Source: Terriglobia bacterium
GTDB taxonomy: Bacteria; Acidobacteriota; Terriglobia; Terriglobales; Acidobacteriaceae
Assembly (NCBI GenBank): GCA_020073185.1
Contig: JAIQFT010000031.1
Coordinates: 1 to 55,000 of the forward strand
DNA length: 55,000 nucleotides
Direction: 5' to 3'
Numbering within the stretch: position 1 is the stretch's first letter; each line of letters begins with the position of its first letter. Below the pieces are notes generated by a model. That model was given only the letters and a program-made list of their open reading frames with translations. It was not told the origin of the DNA and did not search any database. The position numbers were made by a program, and so were the translations under genes. Positions 47,392-54,930 of the stretch are shown one piece after another.

Positions 47392-48327
47392 CTATCGGAA
47401 GTGTTCCCAGCCGCGCGGCGGCATGGGGCGGCGTCTTTCTCGATCCGCCAAGAACACACGCGCCCCGCGTATGATTTCGCCGATGCGGGTAACGCGGACG
47501 CCGGCGATTTCCGCCGGCACACGCGTGCGCGGCGGCGCGGTGAACAGCAACTCGTAGTCTTCACCGCCGTGAAGGGCCATTTCCATCGTCGCTCCCGTTG
47601 CGACTGGAATGCTTCGCGCGTTCACGACAGCGCCCACGCCACTCTCCTCGCAAATGTGCGACAGGTCGGTGGAAAGGCCGTCGCTGAGATCAATGGCAGC
47701 CGAAGCCAGGCGTTGCCGGCGAAGCTGGACGCCCGCAGCGATGCGCGGGTCGGGGAAGAAGTGGGCGCGGTGTTGCGGGGGGCGGAGTTTCCTGCCGGCG
47801 AGCATTTGCCGGATGGCCGCTGCCGAGGCGCCGAGCGCGCCAGTGACATAGATAGCCTCGCCGGGCCTGGCGCCGGAACGCAGCAGCGCCTTCCCCCGTG
47901 GTACGGAGCCAACCACCAAGATATCGGCGAGGACGCCGGTGGGCGATTGCGCAATGTCGCCGCCGGCAAGCGGAACCTTGAATTGTCCGGCGAGCTTCAG
48001 CAGGCCGCGCAGGAAACCGTCGGCCCAGCGCTGCGGGAAATCGGCGGGCAACGCCAGCGACAGAAATGCCGCCAGCGGTTCCCCTCCCATGGCGGCGATG
48101 TCGCTCAGGCCGCGCGCCAGGCAGCGGTGCCCGGCGGATTCGGGCGGATGCCAGTCGCGCCGGAAGTGCACGTCCTCCAGACTGAAGTCGGTGGTGACCA
48201 GCAATTCCTGCCCGCGTGGCGGGCGCAGCACGGCGCAGTCATCGCCAATGCCGCGGGTGAGCACAGGCGAGGGTGAGCATGCAGCTCGCTTGATGCGCTC
48301 GATGAGCTTTCTTTCCGGTAAGGGCAA
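47392..48327 (-). CDS. thiL: Thiamine-monophosphate kinase ThiL
   Basis: About 311 residues, apparently from a TTG at 48327. Motifs: TRGIGDDCAVLRPP, TTDFSLEDVHFRRD (metal and ATP site), ARGLSDIAAMGGEP, and AAIDLSDGLSTDLSHICEE. ThiL phosphorylates thiamine monophosphate to the active cofactor thiamine diphosphate. The TTG start has no obvious ribosome site, so the exact start is uncertain. Divergent from selA across a palindromic repeat. Confidence 0.92.
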   Translation of the reverse strand: MPLPERKLIERIKRAACSPSPVLTRGIGDDCAVLRPPRGQELLVTTDFSLEDVHFRRDWHPPESAGHRCLARGLSDIAAMGGEPLAAFLSLALPADFPQRWADGFLRGLLKLAGQFKVPLAGGDIAQSPTGVLADILVVGSVPRGKALLRSGARPGEAIYVTGALGASAAAIRQMLAGRKLRPPQHRAHFFPDPRIAAGVQLRRQRLASAAIDLSDGLSTDLSHICEESGVGAVVNARSIPVATGATMEMALHGGEDYELLFTAPPRTRVPAEIAGVRVTRIGEIIRGARVFLADRERRRPMPPRGWEHFR

Positions 48328-48351: not shown

Positions 48352-48414
48352 ACCACAGAGACACGGAGACACAGAGACCAAGAAGTTTTCTCCGTGTCTC
48401 CGTGCCTCCGTGGT
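48352..48414. repeat. Large palindrome between thiL and selA
   Basis: ACCACAGAGACACGGAG on the left and CTCCGTGCCTCCGTGGT on the right form an imperfect inverted repeat of about 28 nt per arm, with a 6-nt centre around AAGAAG. It belongs to a purine/pyrimidine repeat type (CAGAGACACGGAGA) that is widely dispersed in bacteria. It lies in the promoter region of both divergent genes. Confidence 0.7.
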
Positions 48415-48433: not shown

Positions 48434-49855
48434 ATGGCCAGGACCTCCAAACCCGGGCCCCGAAACGCGCAACTGTTCCGCAAGCTGCCGTCGGTGGACG
48501 AGTTGCTGCACCAGGCCGAGATCGCGCACATGGCCGAGCGCGAAGGCCGCGCCGCCACCCTGGACGCGACACGCGCGGCGCTGGAACGACTGCGGTCGGA
48601 AATTTCCGCGGGGCGAGTCGACGACCAGCGACTAGAGTTGGCCATCGGCGGCCTGCCGGAAGCGGTAGAGCGCGAGTTGCGCCGCTCCTTACAAATGTCG
48701 TTGCGCCGGGTGATCAACGCGACCGGCGTCGTCTTGCACACCAATCTGGGTCGTGCGCCGCTGTCGGTGGCTGCGCTCGATCACGCGCGCCAGGTTGCGA
48801 CAACCTATTCCAATCTCGAATACAACCTTGATTCCGGCGAACGCGGCCAGCGCGACGTCCATGTGGACCGGCTGTTCGCGCGCCTGCTGAGCGAGTATGC
48901 GGACGACATTTCCACCGTAGTGGTAAACAACAACGCGGCTGCGGTGCTGCTGGCGCTCAATACACTGGCCGACGGCGGCGAGGTAGTGGTGTCGCGCGGC
49001 GAACTGGTGGAAATCGGCGGCTCGTTCCGCATCCCCGACGTGATGAGCAAGTCCGGCGCGACCTTGCGCGAGGTCGGCACCACCAATCGCACGCGGTTGG
49101 CGGACTACGAGCGCGCCATCAACGAGCGCACGCGGCTGATCCTGCGCGTGCACCGCTCGAATTTCCAGATTGTCGGATTCACCGAGCAGCCGTCGCTGGG
49201 GGAACTGGTCGAGCTGGCGCACCAGCGCGGCTTGCCGGTTCTGGAAGACCTGGGCAGCGGCGCGCTGTTTGAGATGAGGACGCTCGGCATCAGCGGAGAG
49301 CCCGGCGTCGGCGACAGCCTGCGCGCCGGCGTGGACGTGGTCACTTACAGCGGCGACAAGCTGCTGGGCGGGCCGCAGGCGGGTCTGCTCAGCGGGCGGC
49401 GCGAGATCATCGCGCGCATCCGCGCCAATCCGCTGTTTCGCGCCCTGCGGGTTGACAAGCTCATCTACGCCGCGCTGGAGACAACGCTGCTCGCCTATGT
49501 CTGCCAGGACCACGATGCCGTGCCTGCGCTGCGCATGATGCGCCTCTCCGCCGAGGAGATCGGGCAACGCGCGCAGGCGCTGGCGCGCAAGCTGCGCCTG
49601 CCGGTGAGCGGCGAGGTCATCGGAGGTGAATCGGTGATTGGCGGCGGCGCGGCGCCCGGGGCAGCGCTGCCGACGCGCCTGCTGACCTTGACGTGGGCAG
49701 ACCTGAGCGCCGACGAATTTGCTTCGCGCCTCAGAAAAAATGATCCGCCGATCATCGCGCGCGTCGAGGAAGGGCGCGTGCTGCTCGACTTGCGAACGGT
49801 GTTTCCTGAGCAGGATGAAGAGATCGGGAAGGCGTTGCAGGCGATCGGCCAGTGA
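48434..49855 (+). CDS. selA: L-seryl-tRNA(Sec) selenium transferase SelA
   Basis: 473 residues. The N-terminus RKLPSVDELLHQAEI is the SelA signature helix; then RRVINATGVVLHTNLGRAPL, NNNAAAVLLALNTLA, RGELVEIGGSFRIPDVM, VHRSNFQIVGFTEQP, LEDLGSGALF, and the PLP-lysine in YSGDKLLGGPQAG. SelA converts Ser-tRNA(Sec) to Sec-tRNA(Sec) using selenophosphate. Its presence shows that this genome can insert selenocysteine, which supports reading the TGA in the peroxiredoxin at 54252-54758 as Sec. selB and selD are not in the window. Confidence 0.96.
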   Translation: MARTSKPGPRNAQLFRKLPSVDELLHQAEIAHMAEREGRAATLDATRAALERLRSEISAGRVDDQRLELAIGGLPEAVERELRRSLQMSLRRVINATGVVLHTNLGRAPLSVAALDHARQVATTYSNLEYNLDSGERGQRDVHVDRLFARLLSEYADDISTVVVNNNAAAVLLALNTLADGGEVVVSRGELVEIGGSFRIPDVMSKSGATLREVGTTNRTRLADYERAINERTRLILRVHRSNFQIVGFTEQPSLGELVELAHQRGLPVLEDLGSGALFEMRTLGISGEPGVGDSLRAGVDVVTYSGDKLLGGPQAGLLSGRREIIARIRANPLFRALRVDKLIYAALETTLLAYVCQDHDAVPALRMMRLSAEEIGQRAQALARKLRLPVSGEVIGGESVIGGGAAPGAALPTRLLTLTWADLSADEFASRLRKNDPPIIARVEEGRVLLDLRTVFPEQDEEIGKALQAIGQ

Positions 49856-51295: not shown

Positions 51296-51730
51296 ATGGA
51301 CGCCGAGGCGATTAAACGCTCCTTGGAGGGCAGCGGGTTGCGCTGCACGCCGCAGCGCTACGCCGTGATGGCGTTCTTGAATGAATGCAACCGGCATCCC
51401 ACGGCTGCGGAAATCTTCGCCGCTGTGAATCGCGTGGATCCGCGCTCTTCCAGGGCCACGACTTATAACAATCTGCGGGACCTAGTGCGGGCGGGTCTGG
51501 TGCGTGAAGTGGCAGTCGAGGGCCGCGCCGCGCGATTCGATGCGAAAGGCGTGCGGCATCACCATTTCGTCTGCGACCGCTGCGGCAAGGTGGAGGACCT
51601 GGAGTGGTACGATGTGCCCAGACCTGCTTCCGGCGCCCTCGGTAAGCGGATTCTTCGCGAATGCGAACTCATTTTCCGGGGACTCTGCACGCAGTGCGCT
51701 CCACGGCGCGTTCGCCGTCCAGTGTCGTAG
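51296..51730 (+). CDS. perR: Fur-family peroxide-responsive regulator (PerR-like)
   Basis: 144 residues. The winged helix is in LRCTPQRYAVMAFLNE and SRATTYNNLRDLVRAGLV; metal-binding residues follow in VRHHHFVCDRCGKVED, with a second CxxC in LCTQCAP, which form the structural zinc site. PerR senses H2O2 by metal-catalysed His oxidation and releases DNA. The gene sits just upstream of katG and is preceded by a perfect box, so control of katG is inferred. A Fur or Zur assignment is less likely because of this context. Confidence 0.88.
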   Translation: MDAEAIKRSLEGSGLRCTPQRYAVMAFLNECNRHPTAAEIFAAVNRVDPRSSRATTYNNLRDLVRAGLVREVAVEGRAARFDAKGVRHHHFVCDRCGKVEDLEWYDVPRPASGALGKRILRECELIFRGLCTQCAPRRVRRPVS

Positions 51731-51838
51731 GCGCGTGGATACCGGATGAATGGCGCGAGTCTGCAAGCGCGGCCGGCGGCGATAGCGCGATTGGGAAAGC
51801 CAGGATGGGTTCGCGGTTCGTCACAGTTTCTCGACTAA

Positions 51839-54058
<2,220 letters not shown>

Positions 54059-54251: not shown

Positions 54252-54758
54252 CTAAGAAATTGCTGAGGCTTTGGCCATCTCCCGCAGCACCTCGAAGACG
54301 TCCTCGTTTTCCGGGACCTCGCCCAACTCGTACACGTTGGAAAATCGGATGATTCCGTTCTTATCAATCACGAAGACCGCGCGCTCGCTGATGCCCGGGA
54401 TGGGATCGCCCTCCCGCAGCACGCCAAAGCGCCGCGCGACTTCGCCATGCGGATAGAAGTCGCTGCCCAAGGGATAGGTGAGTTTCCCCACTTCAAATTT
54501 CTGCCACGCAACGTGGCTGAATACCGAATCGATGCTCATGCCCACGACCTGGGCATCAAGTTCGGCGAACCGGTCGCGATCAGCCTGGTACGCCGAAGTT
54601 TGCGCTGCTCAAGCCGGGGTAAAGTTCAGCGGGTGAAAGGCCAGCACCACGTGCCGCTTCCCGCGGTAATCCGCCAGCTTCAGCCGGTGTTTCTCTTCGC
54701 CGGTACACGCGGGGACATCGAAGTCCGGGGCGCGTTTGCCGACCTCAAGGGCTGCCAT
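54252..54758 (-). CDS. Selenocysteine-containing peroxiredoxin (TGA at position 50 read as Sec)
   Basis: The ATG at 54758 has a near-perfect ribosome site (GGAGGAG, 5 nt spacing). It gives 168 residues: VGKRAPDFDVPACTGEEKH, YRGKRHVVLAFHPLNFTPA, then TGA (54609-54611), then AAQTSAYQADRDRFAELDA, IDSVFSHVAWQKF, DFYPHGEVARRFGVLREGD and SERAVFVIDKNGIIR. This is a complete AhpC/TSA-type peroxiredoxin. The TGA falls exactly on the peroxidatic residue of PxxxTxxC (P43...T47...U50), and the conserved Arg is present in SERAVFVID. No other stop or shift is needed. A SECIS-like stem-loop follows and selA lies about 4.4 kb away, so Sec is much more likely than a broken gene. It should reduce peroxides with high reactivity; no resolving Cys is seen after Sec50. 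Standard gene callers would report only the 97-codon tail. Confidence 0.85.
54577..54592 (-). promoter_or_regulatory. Candidate bacterial SECIS element of the peroxiredoxin
   Basis: On the mRNA strand, 16-33 nt after the TGA, the sequence folds as GCG-U-ACC-AGGCU-GAU-CGC: three outer pairs (54576-54593), a bulged U, two pairs around one C:A mismatch, and an AGGCU loop. E. coli fdhF has two outer pairs, a bulged U, three pairs and an AGGUCU loop, so the layout matches. One mismatch and a slightly larger distance keep this a candidate. Confidence 0.55.
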
Positions 54759-54930
54759 GAGCTCTCCTCCCTAAAGCGAATCTGAAGTGCATCGCAAACA
54801 GGGAATTCTAATGCCCGCCTGCGGGGCGGGCAAGGGACAGTCTGGACCGGTTTCACGTGTTCGTCTCGAAACCGCTCTTTCGGAGAATATGTGGCGGAAT
54901 TTGGCGCATTCGGGAGGTGAACGTCTCATC

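Follow-up and report, generated by a model that had tools for sequence, protein, structure and literature searches.

The question raised by this locus is whether a peroxiredoxin gene that is interrupted once, by a TGA at its catalytic position, encodes a selenocysteine (Sec) enzyme or is a broken or misread gene. The gene lies at 54252 to 54758 on the minus strand of the window, by which we mean the whole 55,000-nucleotide stretch analyzed here, located on contig C31 of a Terriglobia bacterium genome (4.66 Mb, 121 contigs, rated 100% complete). A sequence-only reading had proposed a real selenoprotein. The complete Sec machinery, a TGA in the same column of many homologues, the same TGA in a second genome of the genus, and a structure downstream of the codon resembling a selenocysteine insertion sequence (SECIS) all support that proposal, and we conclude that the gene almost certainly encodes a functional Sec peroxiredoxin, apparently of a one-selenocysteine, AhpE-like type.

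The frame runs on the minus strand from an ATG at 54758 to a TAG at 54252 and comprises 168 codons plus the stop, with one internal TGA, codon 50, at 54611 to 54609 (tca at 54609 to 54611 on the plus strand). This codon replaces the peroxidatic Cys of the motif PxxxTxx(C), in the residue context HPLNFTPA-U-AAQT, and the Pfam AhpC-TSA domain (PF00578) covers residues 6 to 139 with an E value of 4.9e-31, thus spanning the TGA. Directly 5' of the ATG, at 54759 to 54771, is a purine-rich ribosome binding site, GGGAGGAGAGCTC; the same-genus copy (L130) matches its final 11 bases, GAGGAGAGCTC, exactly. Our retranslation agrees with the initial description of one peroxiredoxin frame with a ribosome site and a single TGA at codon 50. 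It had also been predicted that annotation would cut the gene to its downstream 97 codons, and mechanical open reading frame (ORF) calling recovered exactly that, a GTG-started fragment of 97 residues at 54252 to 54545. The presence of this ORF is what speaks for reading the TGA as a true stop followed by a restart at the GTG, which would yield a C-terminal fragment of separate function; such a fragment would lack the catalytic loop, and the comparisons below leave this reading with next to no probability.

Homologues were collected from three sources: 396 phylum genomes, of which 250 gave some match at 1e-15 (a count that takes in other peroxiredoxins); 300 family genomes, 94 of them with a match at 1e-28; and the contig database genome_contigs, searched with two peptide patterns, one containing Cys and the other not touching the catalytic residue. 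The phylum and family searches were queried with a protein carrying Cys, and no search required TGA. We read 208 loci across the peroxiredoxin domain, namely, the 30 best loci found in the phylum, the best 80 of 588 in genome_contigs, and 98 from the family search, for which 21 of the 123 matches among those listed were set aside as partial or low scoring; these 208 include near-copies, since the same gene was sometimes reached by two routes (e.g., L051/L180 and L050/L158). In the column aligned with codon 50, 125 loci have TGA, 65 have TGC or TGT, and 18 encode Ser, and no other in-frame stop occurs inside the peroxiredoxin domain at any of the 208. Homologues with U or C at position 50, which the sequence-only reading had suggested looking for, are therefore plentiful, and the TGAs at unrelated positions or extra disruptions that it had named as counterevidence were not seen. 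The sharing of the TGA column is far beyond chance. The Sec form also extends beyond acidobacteria, to records titled Bacillota, Chloroflexi/Anaerolinea, Candidatus Eremiobacterota, and Candidatus Zixiibacteriota.

These counts bear on both explanations that deny Sec. A pseudogene or sequencing error, in which the TGC or TGT of a Cys peroxiredoxin was mutated to or misread as TGA, would need only one base change, and Cys does occupy the column in 65 of the 208 loci; the recurrence of TGA in 125 loci with no other in-domain stop argues against it. The frame continues without a break to both sides of the codon in every one of the 125 TGA-bearing domains, which argues against termination and restart.

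Comparison with a second genome of the same genus (G488, locus L130) bears on the same two explanations. Its gene, 84% identical at the protein level, carries the same TGA and ends in TAA rather than TAG. Nonsynonymous divergence (dN) from the window gene is 0.091 before the TGA and 0.094 after it, and synonymous divergence (dS) is 1.18 and 0.92, respectively, with mismatches at codon positions 1, 2, and 3 numbering 19, 13, and 67. Both halves of the gene are thus under similar purifying selection, with dN/dS of about 0.1. Such constraint on both sides of a shared TGA is at odds with a pseudogene or an error, and selection on the first 49 codons equal to that on the remainder is at odds with a restart. 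No close copy was found in two other genomes of the genus, G112 and G511; SelB and tRNA-Sec are present in G112, and no SelB match was found in G511.

The machinery for Sec insertion is complete. The selA gene, for L-seryl-tRNA(Sec) selenium transferase, lies within the window at 48434 to 49855 on the plus strand (TIGR00474, 555 bits against a cutoff of 267.9; Pfam SelA, 1.9e-134), as had been claimed from the sequence. The three further components that had been named for checking are all elsewhere in the genome: tRNA-Sec on contig C54 (66.8 bits, cutoff 47; anticodon tca by ARAGORN), SelB on C64 (366 bits, cutoff 242), and SelD on C65 (L047; 365 bits, cutoff 125). The selD gene has its own TGA, within the motif GUASK, a position at which other SelD proteins have Cys or Sec. 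An ORF with an AIRS domain at 47392 to 48327 in the window was considered as SelD and rejected, with 68 bits against the SelD cutoff of 125; we take it to be ThiL. Among homologues from the phylum set (32 genomes given to the search), SelB was above its cutoff in all 17 Sec-form genomes and in 10 of 13 Cys-form genomes, and tRNA-Sec was found in 15 and 9 of these, respectively; among genomes picked from the family set (33 given), the SelB counts were 16/16 and 12/15. A complete apparatus in the same genome as the TGA-bearing gene is further evidence against a decayed or misread Cys gene.

Decoding of UGA in bacteria also calls for mRNA structure downstream of the codon. We folded 18-codon segments along each gene and set them against permuted versions made by swapping codons between genes sharing an amino acid in the same column, a permutation that preserves protein and codon use (20 permutations per segment; segments near the ends gave no value). 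The gene sets were dereplicated at 90% nucleotide identity, leaving 117 of the 125 Sec genes and 61 of the 65 Cys genes. At codons +2 to +19 after the TGA, the Sec genes had a mean minimum free energy of -19.64, compared with -14.60 (standard deviation [sd], 0.21) for permuted versions (z = -24.4), and the remaining segments with values lay between z = +1.6 and z = -5.6. The Cys genes gave z = -1.0 at the same place, with no segment under -1.4. The excess held separately for the 62 Sec genes of the protein's own family and the 55 others (0 of 30 permutations as low in each). The family thus shows downstream structure beyond what its protein demands, and the restriction of that excess to Sec genes, together with the evidence above, leaves a pseudogene or sequencing error very improbable.

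In the window gene the SECIS-like hairpin lies at 54561 to 54597 on the minus strand, with a middle stem, TTCGGCG/CGCCGAA, enclosing the apical part; the evidence for it is strong for the family set but not significant for this one sequence. Counting the U of UGA as position 0, the middle helix (positions 14 to 20 with 44 to 50) is paired in 79.7% of own-family cells, compared with 32 to 55% when slid, and the apical helix in 59.9%, compared with 24 to 50%. By our reading, the same-genus copy differs from the window gene at one middle-helix pair, both sides of which are changed, from U-A to G-C. The bacterial SECIS (bSECIS) rule, as given in the consulted part of the source, places the apical loop 16 to 37 nucleotides after UGA and calls for G within the first two bases of the loop (PMC13188914); the observed loops start mostly 26 to 28 nucleotides after UGA, within those limits. 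A G occupies the expected first position of the loop in 45 of 62 own-family and 47 of 55 other Sec genes, which is uninformative alone because it is also common in Cys genes (10/13 and 38/48, respectively). A first scan over many subsegments separated the classes poorly, the rule being satisfied in 71 of 125 Sec, 32 of 65 Cys, and 9 of 18 Ser genes, and under the stricter test, 26 of 55 other Sec genes (permuted mean, 22.7; sd, 3.6) and 21 of 61 Cys genes (20.4; sd, 3.2) passed. The check for a SECIS element that had been proposed thus came out in part: structure downstream of the TGA stands at the family level, and the strict loop rule is satisfied little more often than by chance. We therefore call the structure SECIS-like and do not claim the exact published bSECIS consensus.

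By sequence profile and conserved residues, the protein appears to be an AhpE-like, one-Sec peroxiredoxin. It has the PxxxTxxC/U motif, the Arg, and the thioredoxin fold of peroxiredoxins, and its AlphaFold2 model has a mean pLDDT (predicted local distance difference test score) of 96.9 and template-modeling (TM) scores of about 0.9 to peroxiredoxin structures. A profile built from 30 relatives (alignment A1) matched Mycobacterium tuberculosis AhpE (MtAhpE) best among solved chains (3.9e-43), ahead of BAS1/PrxA (1.3e-36). Invariant positions in A1 are L28, P43, C/U50, D100, P103, R126, and G135, and position 47 is usually Thr or Ser; no Cys other than C/U50 is invariant in the 30 rows. The closest profile match together with the lack of a conserved resolving Cys places the protein in the AhpE subfamily by sequence profile. 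It scored below the cutoffs of all 12 NCBIfam models that it matched, including PrxU (equivalog NF040737; 91.7 bits against a curated cutoff of 270).

The proposed mechanism follows from these assignments. Using SelB, tRNA-Sec, and the downstream hairpin, the ribosome would insert Sec at the codon 50 UGA, as suggested by the genes present and the family-level structure. By family analogy, the Sec selenolate, whose pocket would include the invariant residues Pro43 and Arg126 together with the Thr/Ser at 47, would attack H2O2, organic hydroperoxides, or peroxynitrite and be converted to a selenenic acid. Because no second Cys is conserved, the selenenic acid would probably be resolved by an outside thiol. 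Our tentative best guess for this reductant is bacillithiol, with a bacilliredoxin or thioredoxin acting after it, since BshA of the bacillithiol pathway is encoded in the genome (565 bits; cutoff, 273.7) and by analogy with MtAhpE, mycothiol, and mycoredoxin-1. A variant that overlaps the selenoprotein explanation, in which thioredoxin takes the place of bacillithiol as reductant or Cys18 acts as the resolving residue, is possible, if on balance doubtful: Cys18 is present in the window protein, the same-genus copy, and some relatives, and typical 2-Cys proteins are close in fold, but Cys occurs there in only 2 of the 30 A1 rows, so that the other proteins would need a different route, and the AhpE-like profile match indicates one-Cys chemistry.

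Several observations weigh against a functional AhpE-like selenoprotein and should be set beside the evidence above. The tRNA-Sec was not found at an E value of ≤1e-9 in 2 of the 17 Sec-form genomes (G230 and G016), perhaps because of search depth or assembly gaps. A proposed basal helix failed the slid control (30.6% paired) and is not claimed. Taken singly, the window gene does not stand out in folding energy from its synonymous versions, 95 of 500 of which are as low, and its full-segment fold has the loop AUCG, which violates the G rule, while another of its folds satisfies the bSECIS rule with a loop at 32 nucleotides. The strict rule is satisfied in 41 of the 62 own-family Sec genes, against a permuted mean of 32.7 (sd, 3.6). 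RNAalifold gave no consensus structure for the ungapped Sec set (all, own-family, and other rows) or for the Cys set, and codon-permutation folding and pair counts from single folds were therefore used. As for the subtype, a single-sequence search ranks BAS1 first (3.7e-27), with typical 2-Cys proteins above MtAhpE, and Foldseek places the 2-Cys proteins PrxA and Prx3 above AhpE, the first MtAhpE match being at rank 33 with a TM score of 0.95 over the AhpE length. Finally, the reductant is a guess.

How the Sec, Cys, and Ser forms are related was addressed with a tree of the 208 rows in which the catalytic residue was masked; it is rooted at its midpoint, and 82 of its 201 inner branches are weak (drawn open). 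The three states require 18 changes, compared with a shuffled mean of 71.3, and, given the starred branches, the Sec label must have changed at least six times across the tree. The most parsimonious histories of the own-family clade (105 rows) involve seven to eight Sec-to-Cys changes, at most one Cys-to-Sec change, and one Sec-to-Ser change. Over the whole tree, which direction prevails varies with the root chosen and the costs assigned. At near-equal costs, the cheaper root (Sec) gives 15 to 17 Sec-to-Cys changes against 0 to 2 in reverse. A Cys root gives anything from 16 against 2 to 9 against 9, and costing Sec-to-Cys double gives 9 each way. With midpoint rooting and this many weak inner branches, all these counts are soft. 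In one Cys-form genus, g263, represented by eight genomes and by L050, a named copy of one of these, SelB is kept in seven of the eight genomes. About as likely as not is a history in which the Sec form was ancestral in the acidobacterial family and was replaced by Cys some seven to eight times, mostly with SelB kept, and once by Ser, giving a conserved pseudo-peroxiredoxin. If this were so, selection acting locally on the enzyme, and not loss of the machinery, would drive the loss of Sec, the opposite of the tally for peroxiredoxins in the consulted text of a 2006 survey, which counts five Cys-to-Sec events and no Sec-to-Cys event (PMC1794560).

The Ser form (L210 to L227) comprises 18 loci with Ser at the catalytic column, of which 16 also lack the Thr/Ser of the motif (mostly NWEPVS-like). 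They occur in the family genomes G436, G435, G452, G458, G402, G444, G484, G489, G467, G404, G419, G465, G504, G400, G437, G521, G417, and G627. The codons are AGC in 14, AGT in 2, TCA in 1, and TCG in 1; 17 rows form one starred branch within a Sec-rich clade, and L220, the sole TCA, stands beside it, with a support of 68 for the grouping of all 18. This paralogue of the Sec peroxiredoxin looks catalytically dead and is probably not a peroxidase. Natural Sec, Cys, and Ser versions in related bacteria make a good system for studying what advantage Sec confers and why it disappears.

Three further peroxiredoxin-fold frames in the genome have a TGA at the catalytic position: L235 (C35:12970-13374, minus strand; FTGGU, after an apparent signal peptide), L236 (C40:14225-14674, minus strand; NTPGU), and L241 (C47:7118-7585, plus strand; GTWUPNC). 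L236 and L235 resemble the window protein in being PF00578 proteins with TxxU, but their similarity to its family is low, with 78.8 and 113 bits, respectively, against the A1 profile, compared with 209.5 bits for the window protein. With these three, the window peroxiredoxin, and SelD, the predicted selenoproteome of this genome comprises at least five proteins. Read correctly, the genome suggests that this acidobacterium places Sec in several peroxide-handling proteins, and the loss from standard ORF calling, which would reduce the window gene to its 97-residue fragment, would extend to its relatives (64 of the 98 family-search loci have TGA).

In the window, perR and katG adjoin the peroxiredoxin gene, with katG on the opposite, convergent strand. 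The corresponding region of G488 (L228) has the order thiL-like gene, selA, Yip1-domain gene, and Sec peroxiredoxin gene, with no perR or katG between, so that perR-katG has been gained or lost at this locus (window positions 51296 to 54058). The adjacency that the sequence-only reading had mentioned is real, but the neighborhood does not recur in the single same-genus genome used for comparison. An operon-like tie to katG and perR was rejected given the opposite strands and this absence, and the adjacency is no evidence for function because the corresponding site in G488 lacks the pair. An inverted cluster of a repeat of the ACCACGGAGACACGGAG type (three matches, compared with 0.01 expected) lies at 48352 to 48414, between the thiL-like gene and selA.

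Because TxxU peroxiredoxins are an established family of selenoproteins, the window gene is a further member of an already known class of selenoenzymes. The premise that Sec peroxiredoxins exist in bacteria is borne out by this published family, and the description of the gene as hidden applies to standard ORF calling and not to the literature. One published set is filed under COG1225, which we take to be a Bcp/PrxQ-type group. That set, from the Sargasso Sea (PMC1088965), differs in this respect from the window protein, which is AhpE-like by profile. In the portions of the sources consulted, TxxU peroxiredoxins (Prx, PF00578) are treated as a known bacterial selenoprotein family (PMC13188914, PMC1088965), with 91 proteins in 78 organisms (PMC5029168) and 253 in ocean samples (PMC2398784), and they share with the window protein the AhpC/TSA fold, Sec at the peroxidatic residue, and Sec machinery in the genome (PMC13188914, PMC1088965, PMC1794560, PMC2398784, PMC5029168). 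For Acidobacteria, the consulted text of the 2006 survey counts four selenoproteins in three families that it does not name (PMC1794560), and the part of deep-Sep consulted gives three known selenoprotein genes in Occallatibacter riparius, again with families unnamed; a Sec peroxiredoxin may be among those counted. None of the listed titles and abstract openings on selenoproteins or selenocysteine in connection with Acidobacteria, AhpE, or peroxiredoxin described an AhpE-type Sec peroxiredoxin, which is weak evidence of absence. What appears to be new are the AhpE-like subtype, the apparent repeated replacement of Sec by Cys, mostly with SelB kept, and the Ser paralogue.

By profile, the closest counterpart among solved structures is MtAhpE (Rv2238c; PDB 1xxu, 4x0x, and 5c04), which shares with the window protein the SDFxPHG segment, the FHPLxFT loop, and the lack of a conserved partner Cys. 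MtAhpE, as described in the part of the source consulted, forms a sulfenic acid on oxidation and is reduced either by mycoredoxin-1 or via mycothiol (PMC4360819). The two differ in that MtAhpE has Cys where the window protein would have Sec and in that the reductant of MtAhpE is mycothiol/mycoredoxin, whereas the genome studied here encodes the bacillithiol enzyme BshA.
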